DNA from: Acetobacteraceae bacterium
Lineage (GTDB): Bacteria; Pseudomonadota; Alphaproteobacteria; Acetobacterales; Acetobacteraceae
Assembly: GCA_020848935.1 (NCBI GenBank)
Contig: JADLHF010000101.1
Coordinates: 1-38,455, forward strand
Reading direction: 5' to 3'
Length of the DNA: 38,455 nucleotides
In this document: positions 5,267 through 29,144 of the stretch, piece after piece
Numbering within the stretch: position 1 is the first letter of the stretch
Layout of the letters: every line of letters begins with the position of its first letter
Notes under the pieces: generated by a model
Told to the model about the DNA's origin: nothing
The model's database searches: none
What the model saw: only the letters and a program-made list of their open reading frames with translations
Made by a program: the position numbers and the translations under genes

Positions 5267-5282
5267 CGTATCTTCCTTAGGT

Positions 5283-5359
5283 CATGAAAGTTTTTTGGTT
5301 TTTTTTCAAAAAAGAACAGCGCTTCTTTTTGAAAAAAGAAGCAAAAACTTTCATTCATT
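5283..5359. repeat. A/T-rich hairpin repeat, locus 2 (reversed order, between co-directional genes)
   Basis: Two units in the opposite arrangement to the other pairs: the ATGAAAG/CTTTCAT tails face outward and the hairpins abut in the middle. First hairpin about 5298-5317 (imperfect, GTTTTTTTTC.. to ..AAAGAAC); second hairpin 5321-5342 (GCTTCTTTTT/AAAAAGAAGC around GA). The outward tails ATGAAAGTTTTT and AAAAACTTTCAT are themselves complementary, so the whole locus can fold as one long interrupted stem. It separates the CMD-like gene from the M20 gene, both on the minus strand. The last two codons and TGA stop of the CMD-like gene (5351-5359) are built from the repeat's ATTCATTCAT motif. Confidence 0.85.
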
Positions 5360-5902: not shown

Positions 5903-5939
5903 GCGGGCGCTCCTTGCGGCGGATGGGCGGGAGCATAGA

Positions 5940-6851: not shown

Positions 6852-6852
6852 C

Positions 6853-8324: not shown

Positions 8325-8325
8325 G

Positions 8326-9689: not shown

Positions 9690-9771
9690 GCGCGTTCCCC
9701 CTTGTCGCTCGGTCGGACTCTAGGCGACACGGTGGAGCGATGCCAACATGCGGGGATCGGGAGGATACCGC

Positions 9772-10401
9772 ATGAGCGACACTGGCCGGATGGTTCTGCA
9801 CTGGTCGCCGCGCTCGCCCTATGTGCGCAAGGTGGTCGTCGCCGCGCATGAGCTGGGGTTGCAGGACCGCATTTCGCTGGTGCGCACGATGGTGGGCGGG
9901 ACCACGCCGCATCCGGCGCTGATGCGGGAGAATCCGTTGGGCAAGATTCCAACGCTGGTGCTGGCGGACGGGACGATCATCTACGACTCGCCGGTGGTTT
10001 GCGAATATCTCGACCGGCTGGCCGGCGGATCGCTGTTCCCCACCGACTGGGCGGCGCGGCTGGTGGCGCTGCGCTGGCAGGCGCTGGGCAGCGGCATGCT
10101 GGACATCGCGCTGCTGCGGCTGGGCGAGCGCGGGCGGGCGGAGGCGATCCGCTCGGCCCCGCACGAGGCGCTGTGGCATGGCAAGATCGTGTGCTGCCTG
10201 GATGCGCTGGAAGCCGAGGCGGCGACGTTGGCCGCGACGCCATTCAACATCGGCCATATCGCCATCGGGGTGGCGCTCGGCTATCTCGATTTCCGTTTTG
10301 CAGCCGAGGCATGGCAGCAGGGCCGGCCACAACTCGCCGCCTGGCAGGCAACATTCAATGCGCGGCCGTCGGTGGCCGCCAACATGCCGCAGGAGGGCTG
10401 A
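9772..10401 (+). CDS. Glutathione S-transferase family protein
   Basis: A 209-residue protein with the N-terminal thioredoxin-fold GST domain: HWSPRSPYVRKV at residues 10-21, offering serine as the likely catalytic residue, NPLGKIPTLVL with the cis-proline, and the glutathione gamma-glutamyl contact DS in IIYDSPVVCEYLD. The helical C-terminal domain covers roughly residues 90-205. The ATG at 9772 has GGGAGG seven bases upstream, so the upstream in-frame ATG at 9748 is unlikely. A metallo-beta-lactamase-fold gene follows three bases after the stop. Such GSTs often act in stress defence or in degradation steps such as isomerisation. Confidence 0.9.
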   Translation: MSDTGRMVLHWSPRSPYVRKVVVAAHELGLQDRISLVRTMVGGTTPHPALMRENPLGKIPTLVLADGTIIYDSPVVCEYLDRLAGGSLFPTDWAARLVALRWQALGSGMLDIALLRLGERGRAEAIRSAPHEALWHGKIVCCLDALEAEAATLAATPFNIGHIAIGVALGYLDFRFAAEAWQQGRPQLAAWQATFNARPSVAANMPQEG

Positions 10402-10404
10402 GCC

Positions 10405-11295
10405 GTGCTGCAATCACGCATGATCGGCGACGCGAGGGTCACCCGCGTGCTGGAATACACTGGCCCCACCCATGCGCCGGAGTTCCTGTTCCCCGAAGTC
10501 CCCAAGGTGGAGCGCGACGCCGGCATCGCCGCCCAACTGGGCTGGCTGGCACCGCACCACTACGTGCCGGCGATGGACCGCTTCGTGGTGACCATCCAGG
10601 CCTGGCTGGTGCATGCCGGCGGCAACGTCATCCTGATCGATACCGGCGTGGGCAACTTCAAGACCCGTGCGGCGCCGCGGATGAACAACCTCAATACCCT
10701 GTTCCTGCCGTGGCTGGAGGCGGCCGGGGCGGGGCCGGAGCAGGTGACCCATGTGGTGCACACCCACCTGCACACCGACCATGTCGGCAACAATACCGTG
10801 CTGCAGGACGGGCGCTGGGTGCCGACCTTTCCCAATGCGCGCTACCTGATGCCGAAGCCGGAATTCGACCACTGGAAGGCGGATTTCGACCGTGGCGAGG
10901 TGGTCCAGGCCGGGTCGTTCGCCGATTCCGTGATGCCGGTGGTGGAGGCCGGGCTGGTCGATTTCTATGACGGTGGCAAGGAACTCGCCGGATGCCTGAT
11001 GCCCGAGCCGGTGTTCGGCCATGCGCCGGGCATGTTCTCGCTGCGGCTGCGGTCCAAGGGCGAGGAGGGGATGTTCTCCACCGACACGATGCACTCGCCA
11101 ATCCAGGTGGCCAATCCGCACTGGAACGACCGCTACGTGCTGGATGCCGGCATGGCGCGCGAGGCGCGGGCGCGAACGCTGAAGAACGCCTGCGAGCGCG
11201 GGGCGCTGATCATGCCGTTCCATTTCGGCACGCCGCATTGCGGCTTCGTGCGGCGCCAGGGCGAGGGGTATGCGTTCGAGGCGGCTGGCTGGTAG
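10405..11295 (+). CDS. MBL-fold metallohydrolase
   Basis: A 296-residue metallo-beta-lactamase-fold enzyme. The zinc motif HxHxDH is H121-L-H123-T-D125-H126 within HTHLHTDHVGNN; further ligand candidates are the His in VFGHAPGMFS, the Asp in FSTDTMHSP and the His in MPFHFGTPH. It lacks a signal peptide. The start is a GTG at 10405 with AGGAGG eight bases upstream, inside the end of the GST gene. Family members of this shape include quorum-quenching lactonases, thioesterase-like hydrolases and other esterases. Pairing with a GST suggests detoxification or catabolism, but the substrate is unknown. Confidence 0.9.
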   Translation: MLQSRMIGDARVTRVLEYTGPTHAPEFLFPEVPKVERDAGIAAQLGWLAPHHYVPAMDRFVVTIQAWLVHAGGNVILIDTGVGNFKTRAAPRMNNLNTLFLPWLEAAGAGPEQVTHVVHTHLHTDHVGNNTVLQDGRWVPTFPNARYLMPKPEFDHWKADFDRGEVVQAGSFADSVMPVVEAGLVDFYDGGKELAGCLMPEPVFGHAPGMFSLRLRSKGEEGMFSTDTMHSPIQVANPHWNDRYVLDAGMAREARARTLKNACERGALIMPFHFGTPHCGFVRRQGEGYAFEAAGW

Positions 11296-11307: not shown

Positions 11308-11435
11308 GGGAAGGTCTTCTTTTTCTGAAGAAAAAGAAGCAAAAAGACTTTATTCATTGGAGTGTGAAGCCAGCGCCAAAGACAAATGAATAAAAGTTTT
11401 TTGGTTCTTTTTTTCAAAAAAGAACATTCTTCCTG
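11308..11435. repeat. Paired A/T-rich hairpin repeat, locus 3 (convergent gene ends)
   Basis: Left unit: GGGAAGGT, hairpin 11316-11339 (stem CTTCTTTTTC/GAAAAAGAAG, loop TGAA), tail GCAAAAAGACTTTATTCATT. Right unit, inverted: ATGAATAAAAGTTTTTTG, hairpin 11404-11425 (GTTCTTTTTT/AAAAAAGAAC), then ATTCTTCC. The two tails are complementary across a spacer of about 25 bases, and GGAAG can pair with CTTCC outside both hairpins. The locus separates the MBL-fold gene (ends 11295) and the ATPase F gene of system B (ends 11453), so it is placed as a shared bidirectional terminator. Confidence 0.9.
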
Positions 11436-11452: not shown

Positions 11453-12247
11453 CTAACCCCGGATCGGCACCGCATCCAGCAGGTCCAGCTCGCCGCCGCT
11501 GGAATCGAGGCCCTTGTTCGAGCGCAGCAGTTGCCGGGTATAGGGGTTGTTCACATCGCCGGCGGCCAGGGCATCGGCGGTGGTGGTTTCCACGATCTCG
11601 CCGCCGTTCATCACCGCGATGCGGTCGCACAGATGGGCGATCACGGCGAGGTCGTGGCTGACCATCAGCATGGTCAGGCCGTGCTCGCGCCGCAGCCGGC
11701 TGAGCAGGTTGAGGATTTCCGCCTGCACCGACACGTCCAGCGCCGAGGTCGGCTCGTCCAGCAGCAGGATGCGGGGCTCCAGGATCAGCGCGCGGGCTAT
11801 CGCGACGCGCTGGCGCTGGCCGCCGGAGAGCTGGTGCGGATAGCGGAAGCGGTGGGTGGGGCCCAAGCCCACCTCGTCCAGCGCCGCGGCCACGCGACGG
11901 TCGGCGTTGCCCAGCTTGTGGATTGCCACCGGCATCGACAGCGTCTGGTCCACCGTCTGGTTCGGGTGCAGGGAGCCGTAGGGGTCCTGGAAGACCATCT
12001 GCACCATCTTGCGTTGCGCGGTGGTGCGGCGGCGCGTCATGGTCTGGCCGTCCAGCACAACCTTTCCCTCGGCATGGGCGATCAGGCCGGCGACGGCGCG
12101 CAGCACGGTCGATTTGCCGGAGCCGGATTCGCCGACCAGCCCGAAGGCGTCGCCCTGGGCCACCGACAGCGACACGTCGCGGGCGGCATCGAAGCGCCTG
12201 GCGCCGCGGCCGTAGCTGACCGTCACCTGTTCCAGCACGATGCTCAC
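11453..12247 (-). CDS. Opp/Dpp-type ABC transporter ATPase F, system B (short form)
   Basis: A 264-residue ATPase, last gene of operon B. It has Walker A GESGSGKS (39-46), the VFQDPYGSLHPNQTV block, signature LSGGQRQR, Walker B LLLDEPTSALD and H-loop VSHDLAVI. As in the ATPase F of system A, the C-terminal cysteine cluster found in canonical members is missing; the protein ends soon after NPYTRQLLRS. The start is a GTG that overlaps the preceding TGA (GTGA, 12244-12247). The open frame continues upstream, but that part is antisense or out-of-frame sequence of the other genes. Confidence 0.93.
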   Translation of the reverse strand: MSIVLEQVTVSYGRGARRFDAARDVSLSVAQGDAFGLVGESGSGKSTVLRAVAGLIAHAEGKVVLDGQTMTRRRTTAQRKMVQMVFQDPYGSLHPNQTVDQTLSMPVAIHKLGNADRRVAAALDEVGLGPTHRFRYPHQLSGGQRQRVAIARALILEPRILLLDEPTSALDVSVQAEILNLLSRLRREHGLTMLMVSHDLAVIAHLCDRIAVMNGGEIVETTTADALAAGDVNNPYTRQLLRSNKGLDSSGGELDLLDAVPIRG

Positions 12248-13110
12248 GCGCGGGTTTCCATCGGTGCGGCGATGTCGTCCAGCCAGGCGGGGTCGCGCTG
12301 CAACTGCGGCAGTTCCGCGCGCCGCTGGCCGAGTTCCGGCAGGGCGGCGAGCAGGCCGCGGGTATAGGGATGCTGCGCCTCGGCCAGGCGGCCGGAATCG
12401 CAGACTTCCATGATCTGGCCGGCGTACATCACCAGCACCCGGTCGCAGAACGCGGAGACGAGGTGCAGGTTGTGGCTGATCAGGATCAGCCCCATGCCGC
12501 GCTCGCGCACCAGCTGGTCCATGATCGACAGCACCTGGCTCTGCACGGTGACATCCAGGGCCGAGGTCGGCTCGTCGGCAATCAGCAGCTCGGGCCCGGC
12601 GATCAGCATCATGGCGATCATGATGCGCTGGCCCATGCCGCCGGAGACCTGGTGCGGGTACATGCCGTAGACCCGCTCGGGATCGCGGATATGGACCGCC
12701 TCCAGCATCTCCAGCGCCGCGGCCCGGGCCGCGGCCTTGCTGCTGGCCATGTGGGTGCGGTGGGTCTCGGCGATCTGGCGCCCGACCGTCATCACCGGGT
12801 CGAGCGAATATTTCGGGTCCTGCAGCACCATGGCGATGCGCCGGCCGCGCAGCTTGCGCATGCCGCGTTCGGACAGGCTGCGCAGGTCGGTGTCGCCCAG
12901 GCTGAGCTCGTCGGATTCGATCCGTCCGGGGTGCTGGATCAGCCGCATGATGGCCCGCCCGGTGGTGGACTTGCCCGAGCCGGATTCGCCGACGATGCCC
13001 AGCCGCTCGCGCCCCAGGCTGAACGACACGCCGCGCACGGCGCGGAAATCGCCGTCGTCGCCGGGATAGGTCACCGACAGGTTGCGCACGCGCAGCAGGG
13101 TGTCGCTCAT
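12244..13110 (-). CDS. Opp/Dpp-type ABC transporter ATPase D, system B (short form)
   Basis: A 288-residue ATPase with Walker A GESGSGKS (41-48), Q-loop LQDPKYSLDP, signature VSGGMGQR, Walker B LLIADEPTSALD and H-loop ISHNLHLV (asparagine where Asp is usual after the His). It matches the system A protein block by block, including the ending DPAWLD, and likewise lacks the four-cysteine tail. The ATG at 13110 overlaps the permease C stop by four bases. Together with the F subunit it energises import of the substrate bound by the SBP at 15146-16747. Confidence 0.94.
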   Translation of the reverse strand: MSDTLLRVRNLSVTYPGDDGDFRAVRGVSFSLGRERLGIVGESGSGKSTTGRAIMRLIQHPGRIESDELSLGDTDLRSLSERGMRKLRGRRIAMVLQDPKYSLDPVMTVGRQIAETHRTHMASSKAAARAAALEMLEAVHIRDPERVYGMYPHQVSGGMGQRIMIAMMLIAGPELLIADEPTSALDVTVQSQVLSIMDQLVRERGMGLILISHNLHLVSAFCDRVLVMYAGQIMEVCDSGRLAEAQHPYTRGLLAALPELGQRRAELPQLQRDPAWLDDIAAPMETRA

Positions 13111-14033
13111 CCCCGCCCGCCCGCGACATCGCGCAGCCCGTCGCCGAGCAGGTTGAAGCCCAGCGAGGTGACGAAGATCGCCAGGCCCGGGATGGTGGCC
13201 ACCCACCACTGGTCCAGCAGCACATTGCGCCCGGTCGAGACCATCGCCCCCCATTCCGCCGCGGGCGGCTGCGCGCCGAGGCCGAGGAAGCCGAGGCCGG
13301 CCGCGGTCAGGATGATGCCGGCCATGTCGAGCGTCAGGCGGATGATCACGCTGGACAGGCAGAGCGGCACGATCTGGGTGGCGATGATGCGCAGGTGCGA
13401 GGCCCCCTGCATCTCGGCGGCCTGGATGAACTCGGCCTGGCGCCGCGTCAGCGTCTCGGCGCGCGCGAGGCGGGCATAGGGCGGCCAGGCGGTCAGCGAG
13501 ATGGCGATCACCGCATTCTCGATCCCCGGTCCCAGGGCGGCGGCGAAGGCCAGCGCCAGCACCAGGCGGGGGAAGGCGAGGAAGATGTCGGTCAGCCGCA
13601 TCAGCACGGTGTCGATCCAGCCGGCGAAATACCCGGCGGGCAGGCCGATCAGAAGTCCGACCGGCACCACGATCAGGCTGACCAGCGTCACGATGGTCAG
13701 CGTCACCCGCGAGCCGAACACCACGCGGGCGTAGATGTCGCGGCCCAGCTCGTCGGTGCCGAACAGATGCGCCCAGGACGACGGCTGCAGCCGGTCCTCC
13801 AGCACCTGGTGCACGGCGGCATCGGCCGAGGCCAGCAGCGGCGCGAACAAGGCCATCAGCACCAGGGCAACCACGATCGCCAGCCCGACCAGCGCCAGCG
13901 GATTGCGCCGGAAGGCGAGCCAGCCACGAAACCAGCGGCCCAGCCGCGCCTGGCCCCGGCTGGCCGGCGCGGGTTCCAGCAGCCAGGCGCGCAGGGTGTC
14001 GGGCGCCGGGGCGATGGACGGGCGCGCACTCAC
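13107..14033 (-). CDS. Opp/Dpp-type ABC transporter permease C, system B
   Basis: A 308-residue inner-membrane permease. A long cytoplasmic N-terminus leads to FRRNPLALVGLAIVVALV; then come HLFGTDELGRDIYARVVFGS, the EAA loop near EFIQAAEMQGASHLRIIATQ, and LGFLGLGAQPPAAEWGAM, shared almost exactly with the system A protein. The C-terminus [15 protein letters not shown] departs from the usual DVLDPR ending. The start is a GTG at 14033, ten bases after the permease B stop, with a weak GGTGAG upstream. It is the second transmembrane subunit of importer B. Confidence 0.93.
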   Translation of the reverse strand: MSARPSIAPAPDTLRAWLLEPAPASRGQARLGRWFRGWLAFRRNPLALVGLAIVVALVLMALFAPLLASADAAVHQVLEDRLQPSSWAHLFGTDELGRDIYARVVFGSRVTLTIVTLVSLIVVPVGLLIGLPAGYFAGWIDTVLMRLTDIFLAFPRLVLALAFAAALGPGIENAVIAISLTAWPPYARLARAETLTRRQAEFIQAAEMQGASHLRIIATQIVPLCLSSVIIRLTLDMAGIILTAAGLGFLGLGAQPPAAEWGAMVSTGRNVLLDQWWVATIPGLAIFVTSLGFNLLGDGLRDVAGGRG

Positions 14034-14043
14034 CGGCGCACGC

Positions 14044-15117
14044 TCACCAACGGTCCCGCGCGCGCGGATCGACCAGCGGATAGACCAGGTCGGACAGCAT
14101 GTTCAGCCCGATATAGACCACGCCCACCAGGATGGTGCCGCCGAGCACGGCATTGAGGTCGGCATTGAACAGCGAGTTCTTCATGTACAGCCCCAACCCC
14201 GGCCAGGCGAATACGGTTTCGGTCAGCACCGCGCCCTCCAGCAGGCTGCCGAAGGTCAGCGCGATGACGGTGACCAGCTGCACCCAGACATTGCCCAGCG
14301 CGTGCACCCACACCACCCGCCACGGCGACAGGCCCTTGGCCAGGGTGGCCAGCACGTATTCCTGGTTCAACTGGGCCAGCATGAAGCTGCGGGTCATGCG
14401 CGCGACATAGGCCAGGCTGAGATAGCCGAGCAGCGAGGCCGGCAGCACCAGGTGCCAGAACGCGTTCCAGAACACCTCCACCTCGCCGGCGATCAGGCTG
14501 TCCACCGTGATGAGGCCGGTGATGGTCGGCACGATGTCGTCGTACGACACGTCCAGCCGGCCCGGCCCCTCCACCCAGCCCAGCTTGGCGTAGAACAGCA
14601 GCAGCCCGACCAGGCCGAGCCAGAACACGGGCATGGAATAGCCGAGCAGGGAGACGAAGCGGATCACCTGGTCCTGCCAGCGATCGCGATGGGTGGCGGC
14701 AAACACGCCCAGCGGCACACCCACCACCACGCCGATGATCAGCGCCAGCACCGACAGCTCCAGCGTGGCCGGGAACACGTGCAACAAATCGTCCAGCACG
14801 GGGTGCGAGGTGATCACCGAGGTGCCGAACTCGCCGTGCAGCACCTTCATCAGGTAGCGCCAGTATTGCACGGGGATCGGCAGGTCGAGGCCGATCTCGG
14901 CGCGCACCTGGGCGTAGGTCTCGGCCGAGGCCTTGTCGCCGACGATCGCCAGCACCGGGTCGATCGGCATGACGCGGCCGATCACGAAGGTGACGCAAGT
15001 CAGGCCGAGAAAGGTCAGCAGCACGGAGAACACCACCCCGGCCACGCGTCGTACGGGCCCGGCGAACCGCCGGACCCGCCCACGCGCCGCCGGGGTTGCT
15101 GTCGTGGCAGCGCTCAC
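14044..15117 (-). CDS. Opp/Dpp-type ABC transporter permease B, system B
   Basis: A 357-residue inner-membrane permease, longer than canonical DppB (about 315). It shares with system A the motif MPIDPV after helix 1, FPATLEL, LLGYSMPVFWLGLVGLLLFY, the inserted GPGRLDV...TGLITVDSLIAGE segment, and an EAA loop around EYVLATLAKGLSPWRVVWVH. A proline- and arginine-rich cytoplasmic N-terminus precedes helix 1. The start is a GTG at 15117 with GCGGAG eight bases upstream, 28 bases after the SBP stop. High similarity and identical gene order indicate that A and B came from one ancestral operon. Confidence 0.93.
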   Translation of the reverse strand: MSAATTATPAARGRVRRFAGPVRRVAGVVFSVLLTFLGLTCVTFVIGRVMPIDPVLAIVGDKASAETYAQVRAEIGLDLPIPVQYWRYLMKVLHGEFGTSVITSHPVLDDLLHVFPATLELSVLALIIGVVVGVPLGVFAATHRDRWQDQVIRFVSLLGYSMPVFWLGLVGLLLFYAKLGWVEGPGRLDVSYDDIVPTITGLITVDSLIAGEVEVFWNAFWHLVLPASLLGYLSLAYVARMTRSFMLAQLNQEYVLATLAKGLSPWRVVWVHALGNVWVQLVTVIALTFGSLLEGAVLTETVFAWPGLGLYMKNSLFNADLNAVLGGTILVGVVYIGLNMLSDLVYPLVDPRARDRW

Positions 15118-15145: not shown

Positions 15146-16747
15146 TCATGCCTTGGTGATCGTGCGGTAGAAGTAGTTGTCCTCGATGATCCCCGGCTTG
15201 TAGCCGTGCACGTTGGCGCGCGAGGCAACCACCGCGTTGGGCTGGAACAGGATGATGAACGGGCCGGTATCGGTGACGATCCGCTGCAGGTCCTCGTACA
15301 TCGCAATCCGCTTGGCGGTGTCCACCTCCCTGGACGCCGCCTTGGTCTTGGCGGTGACCGCGGGTTCGAACCAGTGGTTGCGCCACGCCAGCGGCCGGGT
15401 CTTGGGCGAGTCCGAATTGTCGTCGTTGTGGGCGAAGGTGTCGGCGTTGCTGTGCGGGTCCAGGTAGTCCGGCGTCCAGCTCATGATCACCATCTGGTGC
15501 TTGCGGGTGCGGTAGCCGCCCAGCACCTGTTTCAATTCGGCCGAGACGATGTCCACCTTGATCCCGCCCTGGCCCATGGTCTGCTGAACCGACTGGCCGA
15601 TCTCCGCGAATGGCGAGGTGTTCGGCACGTCGAAGCGGATCTCGAAGCCGTCGGGGTAGCCGGCCTCGGCCAGCAGCGCCTTGGCCTTCGCGGGGTCGAG
15701 CTTATAGGGATTATAGGGAATTGCGCCCATCAGGCCAATCGGCAGGAAGGTCTGCTGCACGTTGAAGCGGCCCTTGAGGAAGGTGTTGGCCATGCCCTGG
15801 TAGTCCACCAGGTATTTCATCGCCAGCCGCACCTTGGGGTTCTTCAGCCGCTCGTCGGAGCAGTTCAGGCCGATATACCAGGTCCCGGAATAGGGGAAGG
15901 ATTCGACGCGGACGGCCTTGTTGCTCATCAGCGGGGTGATCTGGTCGGGCTGCAGGCTCATCGCCATGTCCACGTCGCCCTTCTCCAGCAACAGGCGCTG
16001 GGTGGCCGGCTCCGCCACGTTGCGGACGATGACCCGCTTCATCTTCGGCGCACCCAGGCGGTAGGTCGGATTGGCCTCCAGGGTCAGCGACTCGCCGGCC
16101 TTCCACGACACCATGCGAAAGGCGCCCGACGCGGCGGAGTTGGACTTGAGCCACCCATTGCCCAGGTCGCCGTCCTTCTCGTGCGCCAGCGCCGCCTTCT
16201 TCTCAACCACCGAGGCGGCCAGCGTGCTCATCAGGTTCAGCACCAGCGACGGTGCGAAATCCTCGGTGATGGTGAACACCAGCGTGCCGGCATCGGGCGC
16301 GGTGATCAGTGTCCGGGCATTGTCCTTCGTCCAGCCGAGCTGGGTGAACAGGAAGGCCGGCGTCTTGTTCATCAGCACCACGCGCTGCAGCGAGAATGCC
16401 ATGTCCTCGGCGGTCACCGGCGCGCCGCTCTGGAACTTCAGCCCCGGCCGCAGCTTGAAGGTATAGGTCTTGGCGTCGGGCGAGACCGTCCAGCTCTGCG
16501 CCACCCCGCCCACCAGCTTGGACATGTCCTCCGCCTCGTAGCGCACCAGCCGGTCATAGACCCGCGACATCAGGATCTGGGAGGCGATCTCGTAGCACTC
16601 GCCGGGGTCGCAGGTGATGATGTCGGTGATCTGGTTGGCGATCACCAGCGTGTCCTTCGGCGTTGCCGCCAGGGCCGCGGGACTGATTGTCGCCAGCGGC
16701 GACAGCGCAGCGGCGCCCAGCGCCTGGCGGCGGGTGAACTTCAGCAT
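15146..16747 (-). CDS. Family 5 ABC transporter solute-binding protein, system B, Tat signal
   Basis: A 533-residue periplasmic binding protein (DppA/OppA, SBP family 5). The N-terminus MLKFTRRQALGAAALSP has twin arginines R6-R7 followed by a hydrophobic stretch and ALAA, a Tat-type signal with cleavage near residue 28. Family features include YDRLVRYE, FKLRPGLKFQSGAPVTAEDM and YNPYKLDPAKAKALLAEAGY. The ATG at 16747 follows GGGGAGA with a 6-base spacer; the longer upstream frame lacks one. It heads operon B. Tat export implies folding before export, but I see no cofactor motif. Substrate unknown; peptides, glutathione-like or amide compounds are plausible. Confidence 0.94.
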   Translation of the reverse strand: MLKFTRRQALGAAALSPLATISPAALAATPKDTLVIANQITDIITCDPGECYEIASQILMSRVYDRLVRYEAEDMSKLVGGVAQSWTVSPDAKTYTFKLRPGLKFQSGAPVTAEDMAFSLQRVVLMNKTPAFLFTQLGWTKDNARTLITAPDAGTLVFTITEDFAPSLVLNLMSTLAASVVEKKAALAHEKDGDLGNGWLKSNSAASGAFRMVSWKAGESLTLEANPTYRLGAPKMKRVIVRNVAEPATQRLLLEKGDVDMAMSLQPDQITPLMSNKAVRVESFPYSGTWYIGLNCSDERLKNPKVRLAMKYLVDYQGMANTFLKGRFNVQQTFLPIGLMGAIPYNPYKLDPAKAKALLAEAGYPDGFEIRFDVPNTSPFAEIGQSVQQTMGQGGIKVDIVSAELKQVLGGYRTRKHQMVIMSWTPDYLDPHSNADTFAHNDDNSDSPKTRPLAWRNHWFEPAVTAKTKAASREVDTAKRIAMYEDLQRIVTDTGPFIILFQPNAVVASRANVHGYKPGIIEDNYFYRTITKA

Positions 16748-16870: not shown

Positions 16871-18781
16871 TCAATCCGCGGCGCCGGCGCGGATCTCGGC
16901 CACCAGTTGGCGCAATGCCGCCGGCACGAACGGCTTCTCCAGCACCGGCCGGCCGGAGTGGCGGACCACCGCCTCGCTCGCCGAGCCCAGCGTGTCGCCG
17001 GTCACGAAGCCCAGCCGGCGGCACAGATGCGGGCGATGCGTGTGCAACCACTCGTACACCGCCGCCCCGTCCACCCCCGGCATGCGCAGGTCGCACAGGA
17101 TCAGTTCATAGTCGCGCTCGGCCAAGTATTTCAGCGCGGCCTCGCCATTGTCCACCACGTCGCAGTCATAGCCCTGGCGATCCAGCATATCGGCCAGCAG
17201 GGCGGCGATCTCGCCCTCGTCGTCCAGCACCAGGGCCGGCAGCCGCCCGAACGCCGCCGGTGCTGCCACGGCTTGCGTCGCCACCACGTCCACGTTGCCA
17301 CGCCGCGGCAGGCGGATGACGAAGCAGGCGCCGCCCCAGGCCGATTCCTCCAGCGTCAGCGTGCCGCCATGCACCTCCACGATGCCGCGCGACACCGCCA
17401 GCCCGATGCCCATGCCGATCCCCGCCGGCTTGGTGGTGAAGAACGGATCGAAGATCTGCCCGCGCAACGCTGCCGGCACGCCGGGTCCGTTATCGGCTAC
17501 CGCGATGCGCACGAAATCGCCCTCCAGCATGGCGGACACGCGCACCAGCCGCGGCTGCGGCCGTGCCTCCAGCACCTGGCGGGCGTTGACCAGCAGGTTG
17601 CTCAGCACCTGGTTGAACTGGTCGTGGTCACACGGAATGTCCGGCAGGTCGTCCGGGATGTCGCGCTCCACCGTCACCCCGCTGCCGCGCAGGCTATAGG
17701 CCAGCAGCTCCAGCGCGGTCTGCACCGCCATGGAAACCGACATCGGCTTGACCTGGCTGCGGTTCTGCCGCGCCAGCGCCAGGAAGCTGCGCACGATCCG
17801 CCCGCAGCGCTCGGCGGCGGCCTGGATGCGGTCGGTACGCCCGATCAGCGCGGGCGCCAGGTCCCTTGCCTCCTCGCCCAGCATCATCGCGTTGCCGATC
17901 ACGATCGACAGCGGATTGTTCAACTCGTGCGCCACCCCGGCCAGCAGCGAGCCGAAGGCGGCCATCTTCTCGTTCTCATGCAGCACTTCGCGCTGGCGGC
18001 GGATCTCGGCCTCCGCCACCCGCACCGCGCTGAGGTCGCGCAGATAGGCGGTGAACAGCCGGCGCGACGGCAGGCGCACCTCACCCACCGCCAGCTCGGC
18101 CGGGAAGCGCGTGCCGTCGGACCGCACCACCTCGGTCTCGATCCGGGTGCCGACCCATTCCGGCGTACCGGCCGGTGCCGCCCAGCCCGCCTTCCCGTCA
18201 TCGCGCAAGGCCGCCAGGTCGATCAGCGTACCCACCGGCCGGCCGATCGCCGCCTCCCGTGCCAGGCCCAGGCAGCGTTCGGCCGACGGGTTGAATTCCA
18301 CCACCCGTCCGCCTTCATCGAACACGATGATGCAGTCCAGCGCGGCGGCGGTGATGGCGGCATATTGCGCCTCGTTGGCCTTCACCTCGGTCAGGTCGCG
18401 GCTGTAGCCCACCACGCCCACCACCGCGCCATCGGCGTTGCGGAACGGGTAATAGGTGCGGTGCACGTAGCGCTCGCCTTCCAGGTAGCCGAGCCAGCCT
18501 TCCCAGACGCCGACCTCGCCGGCCAGCGCGCGCTCGAACAGCGCGCGGTGGATCGGGTCGGGCCGCATCCGGGCATAGGTCTCCTCGCCGATCACCTCGC
18601 GGATCGTCCGCCCCAGGATCCGCTCCGGCGGCTGGCGCAGATCGGCCCAATAGGCGGCGTTGACGTAGCAGTGCCGCCCCTCGCGATCGACCAGCGCCAG
18701 CCGCGCGGGAATCGTGTCCAGCATGGTGCGCAGGTCGGTGTCGGTGAGGGTCAGCGTGCCGTTGTCACCCCTGCTGGTCAT
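16871..18781 (-). CDS. Hybrid sensor histidine kinase: PAS-PAS-HisKA-HATPase-REC
   Basis: A 636-residue soluble hybrid kinase with no predicted membrane helix. PAS 1 spans about 15-130 and PAS 2 about 140-255. The H-box AGVAHELNNPLS places the phospho-accepting His at 285. The ATPase domain has N399 in SNLLVNARQ, G1 VADNGPGVP (428-436), F-box FDPFFTTKP and G2 GMGIGLAVSRG. A C-terminal receiver (about 514-634) has acidic residues D520-D521 and phospho-acceptor D564 in LCDLRMPG. There is no output or DNA-binding domain and no response regulator nearby. It starts 21 bases after the molybdoenzyme stop, with GGTGGGG upstream, and is probably cotranscribed with it. The PAS ligand or cofactor is unknown. 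Confidence 0.93.
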   Translation of the reverse strand: MTSRGDNGTLTLTDTDLRTMLDTIPARLALVDREGRHCYVNAAYWADLRQPPERILGRTIREVIGEETYARMRPDPIHRALFERALAGEVGVWEGWLGYLEGERYVHRTYYPFRNADGAVVGVVGYSRDLTEVKANEAQYAAITAAALDCIIVFDEGGRVVEFNPSAERCLGLAREAAIGRPVGTLIDLAALRDDGKAGWAAPAGTPEWVGTRIETEVVRSDGTRFPAELAVGEVRLPSRRLFTAYLRDLSAVRVAEAEIRRQREVLHENEKMAAFGSLLAGVAHELNNPLSIVIGNAMMLGEEARDLAPALIGRTDRIQAAAERCGRIVRSFLALARQNRSQVKPMSVSMAVQTALELLAYSLRGSGVTVERDIPDDLPDIPCDHDQFNQVLSNLLVNARQVLEARPQPRLVRVSAMLEGDFVRIAVADNGPGVPAALRGQIFDPFFTTKPAGIGMGIGLAVSRGIVEVHGGTLTLEESAWGGACFVIRLPRRGNVDVVATQAVAAPAAFGRLPALVLDDEGEIAALLADMLDRQGYDCDVVDNGEAALKYLAERDYELILCDLRMPGVDGAAVYEWLHTHRPHLCRRLGFVTGDTLGSASEAVVRHSGRPVLEKPFVPAALRQLVAEIRAGAAD

Positions 18782-18802
18782 GCCTGGCACCCCACCGCCA
18801 CG

Positions 18803-21094
18803 TCACCGAACCGAAGCGAACTCCGGCAGGGCATGCGCGCTCACCGCCGGCACCGGGCCGTCCAGCCGCTGCACCTCCACCAGGCAGGTCTGCGCCGTGC
18901 AGCCCTGCGACAGCCCGGACGCCCCGGCGTCGCGCGTGAGGGCGTTCGGGTTGCCATGCTTCTCCAGCCCGGTCTGCCAATCATAATCGTACCACGCCCC
19001 GGTCGAAAGTCGCGCCACGCCGGGCATGATGGCGGCGGACACGATCGCGCCGGCCAGGCAGCGGCCGCGGGCGTTGAACACCTCCACCACATCGCCATCG
19101 GCAATGCCGCGCGCCGCGGCGTCCTCGGGGTTCAGGTATACCGGCTCGCGTCCGGCCACCTTGGCCGCGATACTGTGCGGGCTGGCATCCAACTGGCTGT
19201 GCAGCCGCCGCGCCGGCTGGTCGGACAGCAGGTGCAGCGGATACTCTCCGGGTGCCCCCAGCCACTCCGTTGGCTCGAACCAGGTGGGGTGGCCGGGGCA
19301 GTCGGCCAGCGCGAAGCCGGCAATCCGCTCAGAGAAAATCTGGATCTTTCCCGATTCGGTGTTCAGCATGTTGGCCGCCGGGTCGCGCCGGTAGGCCTCC
19401 AGCATCACGATCGGCTTGGCGTGGGCTTCGAGGTTGATCATCCCCTCGTCCCAGAACGTCGCGAAATCCGGCAGCGCGATGCCGATGCCCTCGGCGCGCT
19501 TGTGCAGCACGCCGTACAGGTGCTCCACCCAGCCCATCTCGTCGCGCCCTTCGGTGAAGACTTCGCGCGCGCCCATGCGTTCGGCCAGCGCGGAGAAGAT
19601 GGCGTAGTCGTTGCGCGCCTCGCCGGCCGGCGGCACCACGCGGCGCATCGCCACCACCACGCCCTCATGGCTGCCGAAGCCGATGTCGTCGCGTTCCAGC
19701 GTGGTGGTCACCGGCAGCACCACATCGGCGAACTTCGCCGTGCTGGTCCAGTACGGTTCGTGAACGATGATGCTCGCGGGTTTCTGCCACGCACGCGCCA
19801 GCCGGGCGAGGTCCTGGTGATGGTGGAACGGATTGCCGCCCGCCCAGTAGATCAGCTCAATGTCCGGGTAGGTGTGAACGCCGCCGTTGTAACGGAACTC
19901 CGCGCCGGGATTGAGCAGCATGTCGGCAATCCGCGCCACCGGGATGAAGCTGCGCACCTTGTTGGTGCCCTGCGGCAGCGACGGGCCGGAGAGGCGGGTG
20001 TGCGGGCTGCCCATCCGGTTGGTCGGCCCATAGCCCAGCGCGAACCCGCCGCCCGGCAGCCCCACCTGGCCCAGCATGCAGCCCAGCACCACCGTCATCC
20101 AAAACGGCTGCTCGCCGTGGGAGGCACGCTGCAACGACCAGGCAGCGTTGATCATCGTCCGCGTGCCCGCCATCTCGCGCGCCAGCGCGACAATGCGCGC
20201 TTCCGGCACGCCGGTGATGGCGCTGGCCCATGCCGCCGTCTTCGCCACCCCGTCCGACGCCCCGGTCAGGTAGGGCTCGAATTCCTCGTACCCCGAACAG
20301 CAGCGCGCCAGGAAATCCCGATCCACCGTGCCATCCACCACCCATTGCCGCGCCAGTGCCAGCATCAGCGCGGTGTCGGTATTGGGCCGGATCGGGATCC
20401 ACTCCACGTCGCCGCCGGTCTCCAGGTTGTCGTTGACCGGGCTGACATTGACGAACCGCACCCCGGAAGCGGCCATCGCCCGCAACCCCGCCGGGTGCTG
20501 GTGCTGCCCCACCCCGCCCTGGCTGATCTGTGCGTTCTTCAGCGGCACGCCGCCGAAGGCCACGAACAGCTTCGTGTGTTCCGCCATCACATCCCAGCTG
20601 GTCCCCTGGTTCCAGCTCTCATCGATCGGCATCAGCACATGCGGCAGCAGCACCCGCCCGGCGCCCAGCGAGTAACTGTCGTTGTGCCGCACATAGCCGC
20701 CGATGGAATTGAGGAACCGGTGCACCTGGCTGTTGGCATGATGGAACCGCCCGGCACTGGCCCAGCCATAGGAGCCACCGAAGATCGCCTCGTTGCCATG
20801 CGCCGCCTTCACCCGCGCAAGCTCCGCCGCCACCAGGTCGAGGGCGGTGTTCCAGTCCACCTCGACGAACGGCTCCCGCCCGCGCAACTCCGGCGCACTG
20901 CCCGGCCCGCGCTCCAGCCACGACCGCCGCACCGACGGCCGGCGCACCCGCACCCGGTCCAGCTCCGGCGAGAGCATGTGCAGCCCGATATCGCAGGGAT
21001 CAGGATCGCGCTCCCAATGCCGCAGCACCGGCGCGCCGTCGCTGCCCTGCTCCACGCGATAGGTGCCCCAATGTGCCTGGGTGTAGTGCGTCAT
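18803..21094 (-). CDS. bisC: Molybdopterin oxidoreductase, BisC-like (DMSO reductase family)
   Basis: A 763-residue bis-MGD molybdoenzyme of the DorA/TorA/BisC branch. It opens MTHYTQAHWGTY like BisC and has no Tat or Sec signal, so it should be cytoplasmic. It lacks an N-terminal Fe-S cysteine motif. The molybdenum ligand serine of this branch is S113 in GGSYGWASAGRFHH. Other blocks are ESWNQGTSWD, YWAGGNPFHHHQD and a C-terminal molybdopterin dinucleotide-binding domain with GDVVEVFNARG. Known relatives reduce biotin sulfoxide, methionine sulfoxide or other S/N-oxides. The ATG at 21094 follows GGGGA. No electron donor or maturation gene is adjacent; the next gene is a hybrid kinase. Confidence 0.9.
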   Translation of the reverse strand: MTHYTQAHWGTYRVEQGSDGAPVLRHWERDPDPCDIGLHMLSPELDRVRVRRPSVRRSWLERGPGSAPELRGREPFVEVDWNTALDLVAAELARVKAAHGNEAIFGGSYGWASAGRFHHANSQVHRFLNSIGGYVRHNDSYSLGAGRVLLPHVLMPIDESWNQGTSWDVMAEHTKLFVAFGGVPLKNAQISQGGVGQHQHPAGLRAMAASGVRFVNVSPVNDNLETGGDVEWIPIRPNTDTALMLALARQWVVDGTVDRDFLARCCSGYEEFEPYLTGASDGVAKTAAWASAITGVPEARIVALAREMAGTRTMINAAWSLQRASHGEQPFWMTVVLGCMLGQVGLPGGGFALGYGPTNRMGSPHTRLSGPSLPQGTNKVRSFIPVARIADMLLNPGAEFRYNGGVHTYPDIELIYWAGGNPFHHHQDLARLARAWQKPASIIVHEPYWTSTAKFADVVLPVTTTLERDDIGFGSHEGVVVAMRRVVPPAGEARNDYAIFSALAERMGAREVFTEGRDEMGWVEHLYGVLHKRAEGIGIALPDFATFWDEGMINLEAHAKPIVMLEAYRRDPAANMLNTESGKIQIFSERIAGFALADCPGHPTWFEPTEWLGAPGEYPLHLLSDQPARRLHSQLDASPHSIAAKVAGREPVYLNPEDAAARGIADGDVVEVFNARGRCLAGAIVSAAIMPGVARLSTGAWYDYDWQTGLEKHGNPNALTRDAGASGLSQGCTAQTCLVEVQRLDGPVPAVSAHALPEFASVR

Positions 21095-21129
21095 CGTTGG
21101 AATCCCCCAAAGACAAGCGACAGCAAGAA

Positions 21130-21249
21130 AGACTCTTCTTTTTCTGAAGAAAAAGAAGCAAAAAGACTTTCATTCATTCGCTGGATCGCCTGCCGGAGTC
21201 CCATGAATGAAAGTTTTTTGGTTCCTTTTTTCAAAAAAGAACACGCTTC
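21130..21249. repeat. Paired A/T-rich hairpin repeat, locus 4 (between co-directional genes)
   Basis: Left unit: hairpin 21135-21158 (CTTCTTTTTC/GAAAAAGAAG, loop TGAA), then GCAAAAAGACTTTCATTCAT. Right unit, inverted: ATGAATGAAAGTTTTTTG, hairpin 21221-21242 (GTTCCTTTTT/AAAAAAGAAC, one mismatch), then ACGCTTCC. The tails are complementary over about 18 bases. The right unit abuts the TAG of the enoyl-CoA hydratase-like gene (TAG-GAAGCG on the minus strand). The left unit faces no gene end and lies 36 bases upstream of the BisC-like start, so it falls in that gene's promoter region. Confidence 0.9.
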
Positions 21250-21987
21250 CTATCTCCCGGTAAACCGCGGCTTGCGCTTCTCCTTATAGGCAGCCACCCC
21301 TTCCTTGAGGTCGCTGCTGCCGCGCACCTTGGCCAGCTGGTTGCTTGTTGCCACCATCCGCTCCACCGGGCCCGCCGGCATGATGATGTCGTTGACGAAG
21401 TGCTTCAGCGTCGCGATCACCAGCGGCGCGGAATTCACCAGTTCCTCGGCCATGGCGATGGCCTCGGCCTCGTGGCCGCCATTCTCGGTCACCCGGTTGA
21501 TGAAGCCCACGTCATAGGCCCGCTGCGCGCCGATCTTGGTGCCCAGCAGCATCACCTCCATTGCCATCTTGTGCGGCATGCGGGTGACCAGCGATGAGAT
21601 CATGCCGCCGGTCAGCCCCAGCTTGGCCTCGGGGTAGTAGAAGATCGTGTCCTTCGTGGACACGATCATGTCGCACATCATCGCCATCACGATCGCGCCG
21701 CCGACGCACCAGCCGCTGGTCGCCGCGATCAGCGGCTTCAGCGTCTTGAAGCCCACGGTGGGAATGCAGCGCCACAGCTCCGGCAAATCGGTGACATCCG
21801 CGCCGGAGGAGAACGATTTCAGCCCCACCGCCGACAGCACCGCCACGCGCTGGTCCGACGCGTCGAATTCCTGGAACGCCTGCTGGATGCCCTCGGCCAC
21901 GCCCTTGCTGATGGCGTTCATCTTGTCGGGCCGGTTGATCCGGATGACCGAGACCTTGCCGATCAATTCGGTGGTGACGACAGACAT
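21250..21987 (-). CDS. Enoyl-CoA hydratase/isomerase family protein (crotonase fold)
   Basis: A 245-residue crotonase-fold protein. The oxyanion-hole strands are SSGADVTDL (60-68) and GWCVGGAI (92-99). The second catalytic glutamate of enoyl-CoA hydratase is present (E120 in YYPEAKLGL), but the position of the first (E144 of rat mitochondrial hydratase, followed by LAMMCD) is V100 here. It may therefore be an isomerase, hydrolase or other crotonase rather than a simple hydratase. The ATG at 21987 has AAGGAAG five bases upstream. It is divergent from the RidA gene. Confidence 0.9.
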   Translation of the reverse strand: MSVVTTELIGKVSVIRINRPDKMNAISKGVAEGIQQAFQEFDASDQRVAVLSAVGLKSFSSGADVTDLPELWRCIPTVGFKTLKPLIAATSGWCVGGAIVMAMMCDMIVSTKDTIFYYPEAKLGLTGGMISSLVTRMPHKMAMEVMLLGTKIGAQRAYDVGFINRVTENGGHEAEAIAMAEELVNSAPLVIATLKHFVNDIIMPAGPVERMVATSNQLAKVRGSSDLKEGVAAYKEKRKPRFTGR

Positions 21988-22579: not shown

Positions 22580-22697
22580 GTTCTTTTTTGGAAAAAAGAA
22601 CCAAAAAACTTCTATCCCTTCGCGCTGGATCGACGACACGGCAAATGGATAATAGTTTTTTTGCTTCTTTTTCTTCAGAAAAAGAAGTCCTTCCTTC
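22580..22697. repeat. Paired A/T-rich hairpin repeat, locus 5 (convergent gene ends)
   Basis: Left unit: hairpin 22580-22601 (GTTCTTTTTT/AAAAAAGAAC around GG), tail CAAAAAACTTCTATCC. Right unit, inverted: ATGGATAATAGTTTTTTTG, hairpin 22664-22687 (CTTCTTTTTC/GAAAAAGAAG, loop TTCA), then TCCTTCCTTC. Here the GTTC-type hairpin is on the left and the CTTC-type on the right, the reverse of loci 3, 4 and 6. The right end touches the TAG of the frameshifted amidase; the left unit begins about 12 bases after the RidA TAA. Confidence 0.9.
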
Positions 22698-25144: not shown

Positions 25145-25183
25145 CCCACGCCCGATGCCGACGGGGCTCAGGCGAAGGCAGGG

Positions 25184-25321
25184 AAGGAAGTCTTCTTTTT
25201 CTGAAGAAAAAGAAGCAAAAAGACTTTCATGAACTGCTTCTCAGGCCGCCGTTAAGCACGACAATCTCCAATAGATAGAAGTTTTTTGGTTCTTTTTTTC
25301 AAAAAAGAACCGCTTTCTTCG
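25184..25321. repeat. Paired A/T-rich hairpin repeat, locus 6 (convergent gene ends)
   Basis: Left unit: GGAAGGAAGT, hairpin 25192-25215 (CTTCTTTTTC/GAAAAAGAAG, loop TGAA), tail GCAAAAAGACTTTCATGAA. Right unit, inverted: AATAGATAGAAGTTTTTTGG, hairpin 25289-25310 (GTTCTTTTTT/AAAAAAGAAC), then CGCTTTCTTC up to the TGA of the ATPase F gene of system C. The left unit starts about 75 bases after the dehydrogenase stop. The inner tails match less well here than at locus 4. Confidence 0.9.
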
Positions 25322-26284
25322 TCAATACAAATGACACGCCACCGCATGACCCTCCCCGCTCGCCCGCGGCGCCGGGCGTTCGATGCGGCAGATGTCCATC
25401 ACCTTCGGGCAGCGCGGGGCGAATGAGCAGCCTGGTGGTGGGTTCAGGACGCTCGGCACCTCGCCGCCGATCGCCGCACTGCGCACCCGGTCCGGGTCCG
25501 GCCGCGGCACCGCTTCCAGCAGCGCCTGGGTATAGGGATGCTTGGGCGTGGCATACAGCACCGTCTTCGGCGCATGCTCCACCAGGGCACCCGCGTACAT
25601 CACCGCCACCTCGGTGGCGATCGAGCGCACCACGGCCAGGTCATGGGCAATGAACAGGTAGGACAGGCCCAGCTTCTCCTGCAGGTCGAGCAACAGGTTG
25701 ATGATCTGCGCCTGCATCGACACGTCCAGCGCCGAGACCGGCTCGTCGCAGACCACGAATTCCGGCCGCAGCGCCAGGGCGCGGGCGATGCCGATGCGCT
25801 GGCGCTGCCCGCCGGAGAACTCATGCGGAAATCGCTCGGCCACCGCGCGCGGCAGGCCGACGGTTTCCAGCAATTCCGACACCCGGTCGGTGCGATCGCC
25901 GCGCGACCAGCCGCCGGCGATGTCGATCGGCTCGGCGATGCAGTCGCCCACCCGCATGCGCGGATTGAGCGAGCCGTGCGGGTCCTGGAACACGAACTGC
26001 ATCTTGCTGCGCACCTTGGCCAGGGCGCGCCGCCCATCCTTGCCGGTGATCGTCTCGCCGAACAGCTCGATCTCGCCCGAGGTCGCCGGGATCAGCCCCA
26101 CCAGCAGCCGCCCGGTGGTCGATTTGCCCGAGCCGGATTCGCCCACCAGTCCCAGCGTGGTGCCGGCATTGATATCGAATTCAATATGGTTCACCGCGCG
26201 CAGCACGGCCGGCGGTCCGCCGCGCCCGCGCGTCACCTGGAACTCCTTGACCAGGTCGCGCACCCGCACGATCGGCGCGTTCAT
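25322..26284 (-). CDS. Opp/Dpp-type ABC transporter ATPase F, system C
   Basis: A 320-residue canonical DppF/OppF-type ATPase, with Walker A GESGSGKS, the VFQDPHGSLNPRMRV block, signature FSGGQRQR, Walker B VVCDEPVSALD and H-loop IAHDLAVV. After HPYTQALLEAVP the tail has four cysteines, C286, C292, C299 and C317 (spacing CX5CX6CX17C), with the family signature GCSFAPRCP; such a tail is reported to hold a [4Fe-4S] cluster in some peptide transporters. The ATPases of systems A and B lack it. The ATG at 26284 overlaps the D gene stop by four bases. Confidence 0.95.
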   Translation of the reverse strand: MNAPIVRVRDLVKEFQVTRGRGGPPAVLRAVNHIEFDINAGTTLGLVGESGSGKSTTGRLLVGLIPATSGEIELFGETITGKDGRRALAKVRSKMQFVFQDPHGSLNPRMRVGDCIAEPIDIAGGWSRGDRTDRVSELLETVGLPRAVAERFPHEFSGGQRQRIGIARALALRPEFVVCDEPVSALDVSMQAQIINLLLDLQEKLGLSYLFIAHDLAVVRSIATEVAVMYAGALVEHAPKTVLYATPKHPYTQALLEAVPRPDPDRVRSAAIGGEVPSVLNPPPGCSFAPRCPKVMDICRIERPAPRASGEGHAVACHLY

Positions 26285-27291
26285 GCCACCCGCTCCACGG
26301 CCAGGGCCGCCACCCGTGGCGGGCAGCGCGCCTCCCGCTCCGGCCCGGCGGCCAGCAGCTCCGGCGCCTCGCGCCGGCACGTCTCCTCCACGATCGGGCA
26401 TCGCGGGCTGTAGCGGCAGCCCGGGATCACCGCCGTCGGATCGGGGATCGAGCCGGGGATGGCCGGCAGGCGGCGCACATCGACATCCAGCTTCGGAATC
26501 GCCGCCAGCAGCCCGTCGGTATAAGGATGCACCGGCCGGCGGAACAGCGCCGATACCGGCGAGGTCTCCACCACCCGCCCGGCATACATCACCATCACCC
26601 GGCGGGCGAACTCGGCGATCACCCCCATGTCATGGGTGATCAGGATCACCGACATGCCAAGCTCGGTCTGCAAGTCGCGCAACAGGTCGAGAATCTGCGC
26701 CTGGATCGTCACGTCCAGCGCCGTCGTCGGCTCGTCGGCAATCAGCAGCTTCGGGCGGCAGGCGATGGCGATGGCGATCATCACCCGCTGGCGCATCCCG
26801 CCCGACAGGCGGTGCGGATACTCGTCCACCCGTCGTGCCGCATCGGGGATGCGCACCAGCTCCAGCAGCTCCACCGCGCGGCGGCGCGCGGTGGCCTGGT
26901 CAAGCCCCTGGTGCAGCCGCAGCGACTCGCCGATCTGGTCGGCGATGGTCAGCACCGGGTTCAGCGACGACATCGGGTCCTGGAAGATCATCGCGATCTC
27001 GCCACCCCGGATTGTCCGCATCTCCCGCGTGGACAGGCCCAGCATGTCGCGCCCGCCATACATGATCCGCCCGGTCGGCATGCGCGTGGTCGCCGCGGCG
27101 TGCAGCCGCAGGATCGACAGCGCGGTGACGCTCTTGCCCGACCCGCTCTCGCCGACGATCCCCAGCGCCTCGCCCTCTCCCACGGCCAGGCTCACCCGGT
27201 CCACCGCGGTCATCCAGCCTTCGTCGGTGCGGAACCGCACGGTGAGGTCGTCCACCGCCAGCAATGGCGTGGTGTTGTCCGCGGCAGCCAT
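26281..27291 (-). CDS. Opp/Dpp-type ABC transporter ATPase D, system C
   Basis: A 336-residue canonical DppD/OppD-type ATPase. It has Walker A GESGSGKS (47-54), Q-loop FQDPMSSLNPVLT, signature LSGGMRQR, Walker B LLIADEPTTALD and H-loop ITHDMGVI. The C-terminal tail has C292, C298, C305 and C323, with exactly the same CX5CX6CX17C spacing as its partner F and the motif GCRYSPRCP. The ATG at 27291 is one base after the permease C stop. It energises importer C. Confidence 0.95.
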   Translation of the reverse strand: MAAADNTTPLLAVDDLTVRFRTDEGWMTAVDRVSLAVGEGEALGIVGESGSGKSVTALSILRLHAAATTRMPTGRIMYGGRDMLGLSTREMRTIRGGEIAMIFQDPMSSLNPVLTIADQIGESLRLHQGLDQATARRRAVELLELVRIPDAARRVDEYPHRLSGGMRQRVMIAIAIACRPKLLIADEPTTALDVTIQAQILDLLRDLQTELGMSVILITHDMGVIAEFARRVMVMYAGRVVETSPVSALFRRPVHPYTDGLLAAIPKLDVDVRRLPAIPGSIPDPTAVIPGCRYSPRCPIVEETCRREAPELLAAGPEREARCPPRVAALAVERVA

Positions 27292-27292
27292 C

Positions 27293-28174
27293 TCAGCTCT
27301 CCACCTTCAGCCGCGGGTCCAGCACGTCGCGCAGCCCGTCGCCCAGCAGGTTCATCCCCAGCGCCGCCAGGCTGATCGCAAAGCCCGGGAACAGCATGAT
27401 CCACCATGCCTGCACCGCGTACGACCGCCCCTCGGCAATGATATTGCCCCATGACGGCGCCGGCGGCGGCGGTCCGATGCCCAGGAACGACAGCGCCGCC
27501 TCGGCCAGGATGGCATAGGCGAACACGAAGGTGGACTGCACCAGCAATGGCCCCGCCGCGTTCGGCAGCAGATGGCGGAACATGATCCGCACCGAGGAGG
27601 CGCCGGAAACCTGCGCCGCCTCGATGAACTCCAACTCGCGCGTCACCAGCGCCGAGGAGCGCACGATGCGCGCCGTGCGCGGGATATAGGCCACCGCCAG
27701 CGCAATGATCACGCTGTGCGTCTGCGGCCCCAGCGCGGCACCCAGCCCGATCGCCAGCAGGATCGCCGGGGCGGCCATCAGCGCGTCCATCACCCGCATC
27801 AGCGGCGAATCCAGTTGGCGATACTGCGCGCTCAGCACCCCGATCGCCGCCCCGAACACGCCGGACAGCACCGCCACCGACAGCCCGATCCACAGTGACA
27901 GTTGCGCGCCGTACAGCGTGCGCGTCAGCAGGTCGCGGCCGAACTGGTCGGTGCCGAACAGGAACGCGCCCTGCGGCGGGCGGAAGCGGGCGCGGAACCG
28001 CATCCCGTCGGGATCGATGCCGGTCAGCGGGGCCGCCAACGCGGCCACCACCATCACGGCCACCACGATGAAGCCGATCATGAAGCTGCGATGGTGCAGC
28101 AGCTTGCGCAGCACCCGAAAGCGCCGGCGGGCGGCGATCGCCTCGCCGGATGCCAGTAGGACAGCCTCACCCAT
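27293..28174 (-). CDS. Opp/Dpp-type ABC transporter permease C, system C
   Basis: A 293-residue inner-membrane permease: first helix near [17 protein letters not shown], then [23 protein letters not shown] loop around [39 protein letters not shown] and C-terminal [17 protein letters not shown] chose the ATG at 28174, which overlaps the permease B stop by eight bases (ATGGGTGA), over the longer upstream frame. The DppC hallmark blocks are closer to canonical dipeptide transporters than to systems A and B. Confidence 0.95.
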
Positions 28175-29114: not shown

Positions 29115-29144
29115 CGCATCTCCTTGGTCATTCCCGCAGCCCCT

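Follow-up and report, generated by a model that had tools for sequence, protein, structure and literature searches.

A soluble hybrid histidine kinase gene beside a BisC-like molybdoenzyme gene in an importer block conserved in an Acetobacteraceae genus

The window analysed here, a 38,455-nucleotide stretch of DNA from an Acetobacteraceae bacterium, carries a same-strand block in which an enoyl-CoA hydratase gene is followed by genes for a BisC-like molybdoenzyme (the reductase), a soluble hybrid histidine kinase and a five-gene family-5 (dipeptide-type) ABC importer (Table 1). The order reductase, kinase, solute-binding protein (SBP) and permease is kept in all nine genomes of the genus. Our preferred reading, to which we assign a probability of about 0.4, is that the block is an eight-gene operon through which an oxidised compound would be imported, reduced and monitored by a cytosolic kinase with an unlinked output. 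The first-pass annotation had described the reductase–kinase pair, which is real, but its view of the setting was incomplete as it had overlooked the importer downstream and the hydratase upstream.

Table 1. Features of the block and of the interspersed repeat in the window. Gene starts taken from the gene caller used for the loci are approximate.
Feature	Coordinates	Strand	Basis or remark
BisC-like molybdopterin S/N-oxide reductase, 763 aa	18803..21094	-	TIGR00509, PF00384, PF01568; 1eu1/1dmr alignment
Soluble hybrid kinase, PAS-PAS-HisKA-HATPase-REC, 636 aa from ATG	16871..18781	-	Pfam; H285, D564
Reductase–kinase gap, 21 bases	18782..18802	-	Kinase ATG start
Enoyl-CoA hydratase/isomerase family gene, upstream of reductase	21250..21987	-	PF00378
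Hydratase–reductase gap, 155 bases	21095..21249		Occupied by interspersed AT-rich repeat
Family-5 SBP of importer	15146..16747	-	PF00496; gene call
Importer permease, B type	14044..15045	-	PF00528, PF19300; gene call
Importer permease, C type	13107..14033	-	PF00528, PF12911
Importer ATPase, D type	12244..13110	-	Gene call; genus counterparts 82-86% identical
Importer ATPase, F type	11453..12247	-	Gene call; genus counterparts 87-89% identical
Interspersed AT-rich repeat	3712-3849, 5284-5361, 11310-11434, 21095-21249, 22580-22687, 25169-25315, 37047-37096

The reductase and the kinase

Like BisC and MtsZ, the reductase belongs to the same enzyme family over its full length, with residues 7–757 matching positions 2–767 of the 772-position bisC_fam profile TIGR00509. 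Unlike BisC, it falls below the curated cut-off of this profile (945 bits against 1017.55 in a profile search), and ‘BisC-like’ is therefore the right wording. Both of its molybdopterin domains are recognised by Pfam, and it can be aligned over its length with the solved DMSO and TMAO reductases (1eu1, 1dmr), an alignment in which the SYGW motif and the serine expected at the metal site are present; we take this serine to be the molybdenum ligand and assume for it and for the motif their usual roles. No signal peptide or hydrophobic leader was found at the N-terminus (MTHYTQAHWGTYRVE...), and the enzyme is predicted to be cytoplasmic and to carry out the S-oxide reduction of the BisC subfamily. 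A paralogue with 51% identity is encoded elsewhere in the genome with no kinase adjoining it. A 2118-residue frame on the plus strand across the reductase–kinase region looks like a GC-rich shadow ORF.

The kinase frame can also start at a GTG (16871-18790, minus strand), giving a 639-residue form in which Pfam places PAS_4 at 24–137, PAS at 142–252, HisKA at 282–342, HATPase_c at 388–497 and Response_reg at 520–630, and finds no output domain. The numbering of the receiver aspartate D564 and the 21-base spacing to the reductase gene are counted from the ATG start, with which the spacing given by the first-pass annotation is borne out. Its account of the kinase as two PAS domains, a transmitter with H285 and a receiver with D564 likewise agrees with Pfam and with a residue check: the histidine, the NLLVNA box, the aspartate and glycine of DxG and a glycine of the G2 box are kept in 9/9 copies of the genus, as are the acidic pair, the aspartate, the threonine and the lysine of the receiver. 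This receiver threonine is replaced by serine in the loci L122 and L124. The kinase reaches a maximum 19-residue Kyte–Doolittle mean of 1.27 and therefore has no membrane span, and a profile search among the called genes of the window found no other kinase, receiver or OmpR-type DNA-binding domain, in keeping with the earlier description of a kinase devoid of a membrane span, a DNA-binding domain and a nearby regulator. The structure model of the kinase, built from four sequences, was of poor quality (mean pLDDT 49.3).

The two genes are adjacent on the same strand in 9/9 genomes of the genus, and the pair is thus conserved beyond the strain in which it was noticed. The gaps between them measure 21, 198, −4, 39, 39, 39, 39, 39 and 479 bases, a spacing which suggests that the two are cotranscribed; the two long gaps (G006 and G003) contain copies of the interspersed repeat. 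In G003, which has the 479-base gap, the N-terminal part of the kinase, about 79 residues, is encoded in a different frame (L041:12497-14412), perhaps through an assembly error or damage. Across seven genome pairs with dS of about 0.18–0.87, dN/dS (Nei–Gojobori, own script) is 0.10–0.26 for the kinase and 0.047–0.233 for the reductase; the pair is under purifying selection in the genus. Both proteins are monophyletic within the genus (support 100/100 for the kinase and 100/99 for the reductase), and in both trees G003 and G006 split from the remaining members. The other seven members form a well-supported group in the reductase tree (100/100) and a weakly supported one in the kinase tree (85/53).

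The surrounding block

The hydratase gene lies upstream in eight of the nine genus genomes, the ninth contig beginning at the reductase, and the whole importer is present in eight, with the ninth interrupted by a contig end. The kinase–SBP gap is 84–184 bases in seven genomes and 10 bases in two, and could hold a second promoter. Promoter-like matches (1 against a shuffle mean of 0.5) and terminator-like matches (2 against 2.4) show no clear excess. Beyond the importer, the window genes at 3851–11295 have no counterpart above 50% identity in the fetched loci of the genus, and the border on the importer side is therefore sharp. An amidase-like gene upstream of the block is common to the genus loci.

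Matches to the SBP (E up to 1e-100) occur in 108 of 347 family genomes. In 14 of 16 SBP loci outside the genus, permeases and ATPases with 69–89% identity follow the SBP; the other two are a short contig and a locus with other genes (L249). Neither the reductase nor a close kinase match was found in the span read of these 16 loci. G180 has a 71% identical hydratase immediately ahead of the importer, at a distance of 311 bases. Other genera thus have the importer without the pair, and one of them has the hydratase with the importer. In the simplest reading, the reductase and kinase genes probably entered a pre-existing hydratase–importer operon in the ancestor of the genus; their loss in the other genera is a possible alternative.

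As to the identity of the hydratase, we considered the crotonase-like gene that precedes the reductase in Belnapia and G011 (own profile) as its equivalent and rejected it, for it was absent from the BLAST matches to the hydratase of the window at E 1e-20. The name of DmdD, of the DMSP pathway, was absent among the 37 solved crotonases listed, which does not settle the identity of the hydratase.

Two further, similar ABC importer clusters lie in the window, one at 117-3721 with 57–64% matches to the genus importer and one at 25322-30704 with a family-5 SBP profile match. An AT-rich, self-complementary intergenic repeat of about 120 bases occupies seven places in the 38 kb. It has at least 51 matches genome-wide, with 40 of 529 first-look candidates scored, takes up different operon gaps in different genomes, and flanks the reductase gene in G003 and G006.

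Relatives of the two proteins elsewhere

Reductase matches (E up to 1e-60) were found in 26 of 60 relatives. Eighty reductase loci came from named genomes; three belong to the genus (contigs of G002, G003 and G007) and eight had no usable gene call, leaving 69. A kinase adjoins the reductase relative in one of these, L091 of a marine Rhodospirillaceae bin, and no kinase or receiver recurs among the neighbours in the 69 loci. The L091 kinase is of another type, with PAS repeats, a GAF domain and no receiver, and its gene follows that of a 52% identical reductase after 114 bases (L091:9974-15313). Neighbours on the same strand within 150 bases stand upstream in 43 loci and downstream in 33, and are diverse: among the first 25 Pfam families listed, the upstream neighbours include beta-eliminating lyase (7), NMT1 (5) and Peripla_BP_6 (4), and the downstream ones DAO (4). 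The BisC-like gene lies within a family-5 ABC operon in Kineosporia (L110) and in a Mesorhizobium bin (L118), with an SBP only 23–25% like that of the window. The closest outside reductase (L042, 73%) is 174 bases from a contig end and hence has no readable downstream neighbour.

Kinase matches (E up to 1e-90) are present in 27 of 347 family genomes, nine of the genus and 18 others, the best of the latter being 54% identical; in the class, 9 of 385 genomes have one at E up to 1e-100, own genome included. Outside the orthologous group we read 31 loci, made up of the 21 matches of the 18 family genomes, a paralogue in G008, G057 and eight of nine further class matches. An OmpR-type regulator is the next same-strand gene in 16 of them (14 upstream, two downstream), and all six upstream regulators given to Pfam contain Trans_reg_C. 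In four more loci (L120, L121, L135 and L197), a receiver protein of other make-up is the next gene or the next but one. No BisC-like gene was found at the 31 loci, several of which are short contigs. The run L199:7525-15092, from a distant branch of the kinase, joins an OmpR regulator, a PAS-kinase-REC protein and a family-5 importer.

In both known genomes of another genus, g59, MsrP (profile scores of 403 and 400 bits, cut-off 207) is followed after 71 and 60 bases by a kinase with 53% identity. As both cases belong to one genus, they count as one event. MsrP was present in 14/14 genomes tested, and in five further genomes read no kinase stands beside it. The comparison of MsrP neighbours was made after the fact. 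Assuming some 5000 genes in each genome and around five lineages of the kinase clade outside the genus (our own estimate, made with no tool), one given single-copy neighbour would be met by chance in about one case in a thousand and one or other of several sulfoxide reductases in about one in two hundred, figures that were reckoned after looking and are suggestive only. The kinase tree places the genus with g118 and g82 at weak support (85/60) and g59 in a neighbouring group with g68, g25 and g60, which makes it look as if the BisC and MsrP settings arose separately. More widely, some kinase relatives at 53–54% identity have MsrP as a neighbour, others an OmpR regulator or a flavin monooxygenase-like gene, and others lack all three. 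The flavin monooxygenase-like gene, in L121:7064-10837, is followed by the kinase relative at 123 bases.

MsrP and the BisC-like enzyme come from unrelated families. According to the available parts of PMC12096835 and PMC5122715, MsrP, like BisC, is a sulfoxide reductase that uses molybdenum. The link of the kinase to sulfoxide reduction gains support from the presence of MsrP beside its relatives in one genus. A broader reading, in which the soluble PAS-PAS hybrid kinases of one small clade are devoted to molybdenum methionine-sulfoxide reductases and report the cytosolic methionine-sulfoxide state, placing sulfoxide uptake and reduction under a signalling system of their own in the cytosol, appears distinctly unlikely to us; the enzyme would then be drawn from either of the two families, cytoplasmic and BisC-like in one genus and the periplasmic MsrP in another.

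Sensor kinases tied to enzymes of the DMSO-reductase family are known from TorS-TorT-TorR with torCAD, in which TorS is a hybrid, and from DorS-DorR with dorCDA. TorS is membrane-bound and has a periplasmic sensor part and partner and a local regulator, whereas the kinase described here has neither a membrane span, at its hydropathy maximum, nor a local regulator. As far as the sections of PMC12096835 and PMC8550376 at hand go, a histidine kinase is also coupled to a molybdenum methionine-sulfoxide reductase in Escherichia coli (HprSR, MsrPQ) and in its uropathogenic strains (OrhKR, an MsrPQ homologue). These are kinase–regulator pairs that control a periplasmic enzyme, in contrast to the soluble hybrid kinase without a partner, the cytoplasmic BisC-like enzyme and the importer found here. 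The accessible portions of PMC12096835 and PMC5122715 make no mention of an adjacent hybrid kinase for BisC or MtsZ, and a soluble hybrid kinase in a bisC-type operon appears in none of the titles and abstracts of the literature searched.

Signal, output and competing readings

Among solved structures, the second PAS domain is most like FixL, and a ranking for the whole kinase puts ZraS first and FixL fusions second; the first PAS domain has a weak solved relative in the PAS of BvgS (E 9e-5). Redox sensing, suggested by the first-pass annotation, finds no footing in either of two forms. The histidine of FixL, presumably its haem ligand, aligns with an aspartate (alignment with 1d06), which speaks against FixL-type haem sensing, and no PAS cysteine is common to the 20 aligned kinases, which speaks against thiol sensing across the clade. 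Cys150 is kept in 9/9 genus copies and, outside the genus, in L120, L123 and L195 only. The kinase also differs from FixL in having no adjoining partner regulator, and from OmpR-type two-component pairs in that no OmpR-type regulator adjoins it among the called genes of the window. No OmpR-type partner emerged elsewhere in its genome either: of the four regulators of this type that match at E up to 1e-30, three adjoin kinases of their own and the fourth follows pst-phoU. By these gene settings, the kinase looks like an orphan.

In the eight-gene reading, the dipeptide-type importer would take up a small oxidised compound and the BisC-like enzyme would reduce the imported S-oxide (or N-oxide) in the cytoplasm. 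Made from the same transcript, the soluble kinase would use its PAS domains to sense the substrate, the product or a metabolite linked to them, autophosphorylate at H285 and pass the phosphate to D564 of its own receiver. As an OmpR-type partner is found in about half of its relatives and not here, the signal would be passed on by an unlinked protein. Importers of family 5 accept many substrates; the likeliest one here would be free methionine sulfoxide or peptides that contain it. The kinetics of MtsZ suggest that methionine sulfoxide is its natural substrate (PMC12096835, PMC5122715, available parts). The importer strengthens the link to uptake, and the kinase may serve either the reductase or the importer. 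The earlier proposal that sensing is tied to the reductase gains support from the MsrP neighbour in g59, but, as the pair lies within a larger importer operon, the kinase may respond to the imported compound and may act on the importer.

That the kinase serves the importer, controlling peptide or amino-acid uptake, with the reductase as a passenger of the operon, we consider somewhat unlikely. The SBP gene does follow the kinase immediately in 9/9 genus genomes, a 41% identical relative in G353 lies in a run of OmpR regulator, PAS-kinase-REC protein, SBP, two permeases and two ATPases, and in G035 a 1063-residue kinase stands 291 bases after the same importer; yet 15 of the 16 outside SBP loci have no kinase beside the importer, and the kinase relatives at 53–54% identity do not adjoin it. 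Neutral juxtaposition, in which the kinase lost the partner it had in an OmpR-type system and came to lie between two unrelated genes, would fit the OmpR-type regulators beside 16 of the 31 outside kinases, the occurrence of importer and hydratase without the pair, and the fact that some upstream synteny is also common to the genus, so that shared order alone is not special. It is very unlikely given that the gene order has been kept over the dS range above with dN/dS well below 1 and that the catalytic residues checked are intact in 9/9 copies.

A further reading, unlikely in our judgement, is that the kinase feeds a general phosphorelay, for example a stand-alone Hpt with a sigma-54-type regulator, and that its position in the operon matters for its expression level alone. 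As to a distant phosphotransfer protein, to which the first-pass annotation would have the kinase signal, a stand-alone Hpt-sized frame of 111–174 residues is present in 9/9 genus genomes, but it is unlinked to the operon and is a candidate phosphate acceptor for the kinase and no more. G007 has a second, weaker frame of 75 residues. In G000, the Hpt is flanked by a STAS protein and a receiver-containing sigma-54 activator (L271:9172-11872), and three further genomes have Hpt neighbours of similar lengths in the same order, the neighbours having been read in four of the nine genomes and given to Pfam in one. We take this arrangement to resemble LuxU-LuxO. Against the phosphorelay stands a Cache-PAS hybrid kinase on the contig of the Hpt, which is a nearer candidate donor.

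As a conserved kinase of a BisC-like operon with relatives that adjoin MsrP, the protein offers a testable entry to the sensing of methionine oxidation in the cytosol. With the importer in the block, the substrate could be named through the ligand of the SBP. The SBP of the window is 57–58% identical to those of its eight genus mates and 75% identical to that of G022, and the SBPs of the seven mates compared are 84–98% alike. It therefore looks as if this SBP was swapped without its neighbours, and it may bind another ligand than the SBPs of the other members of the genus.
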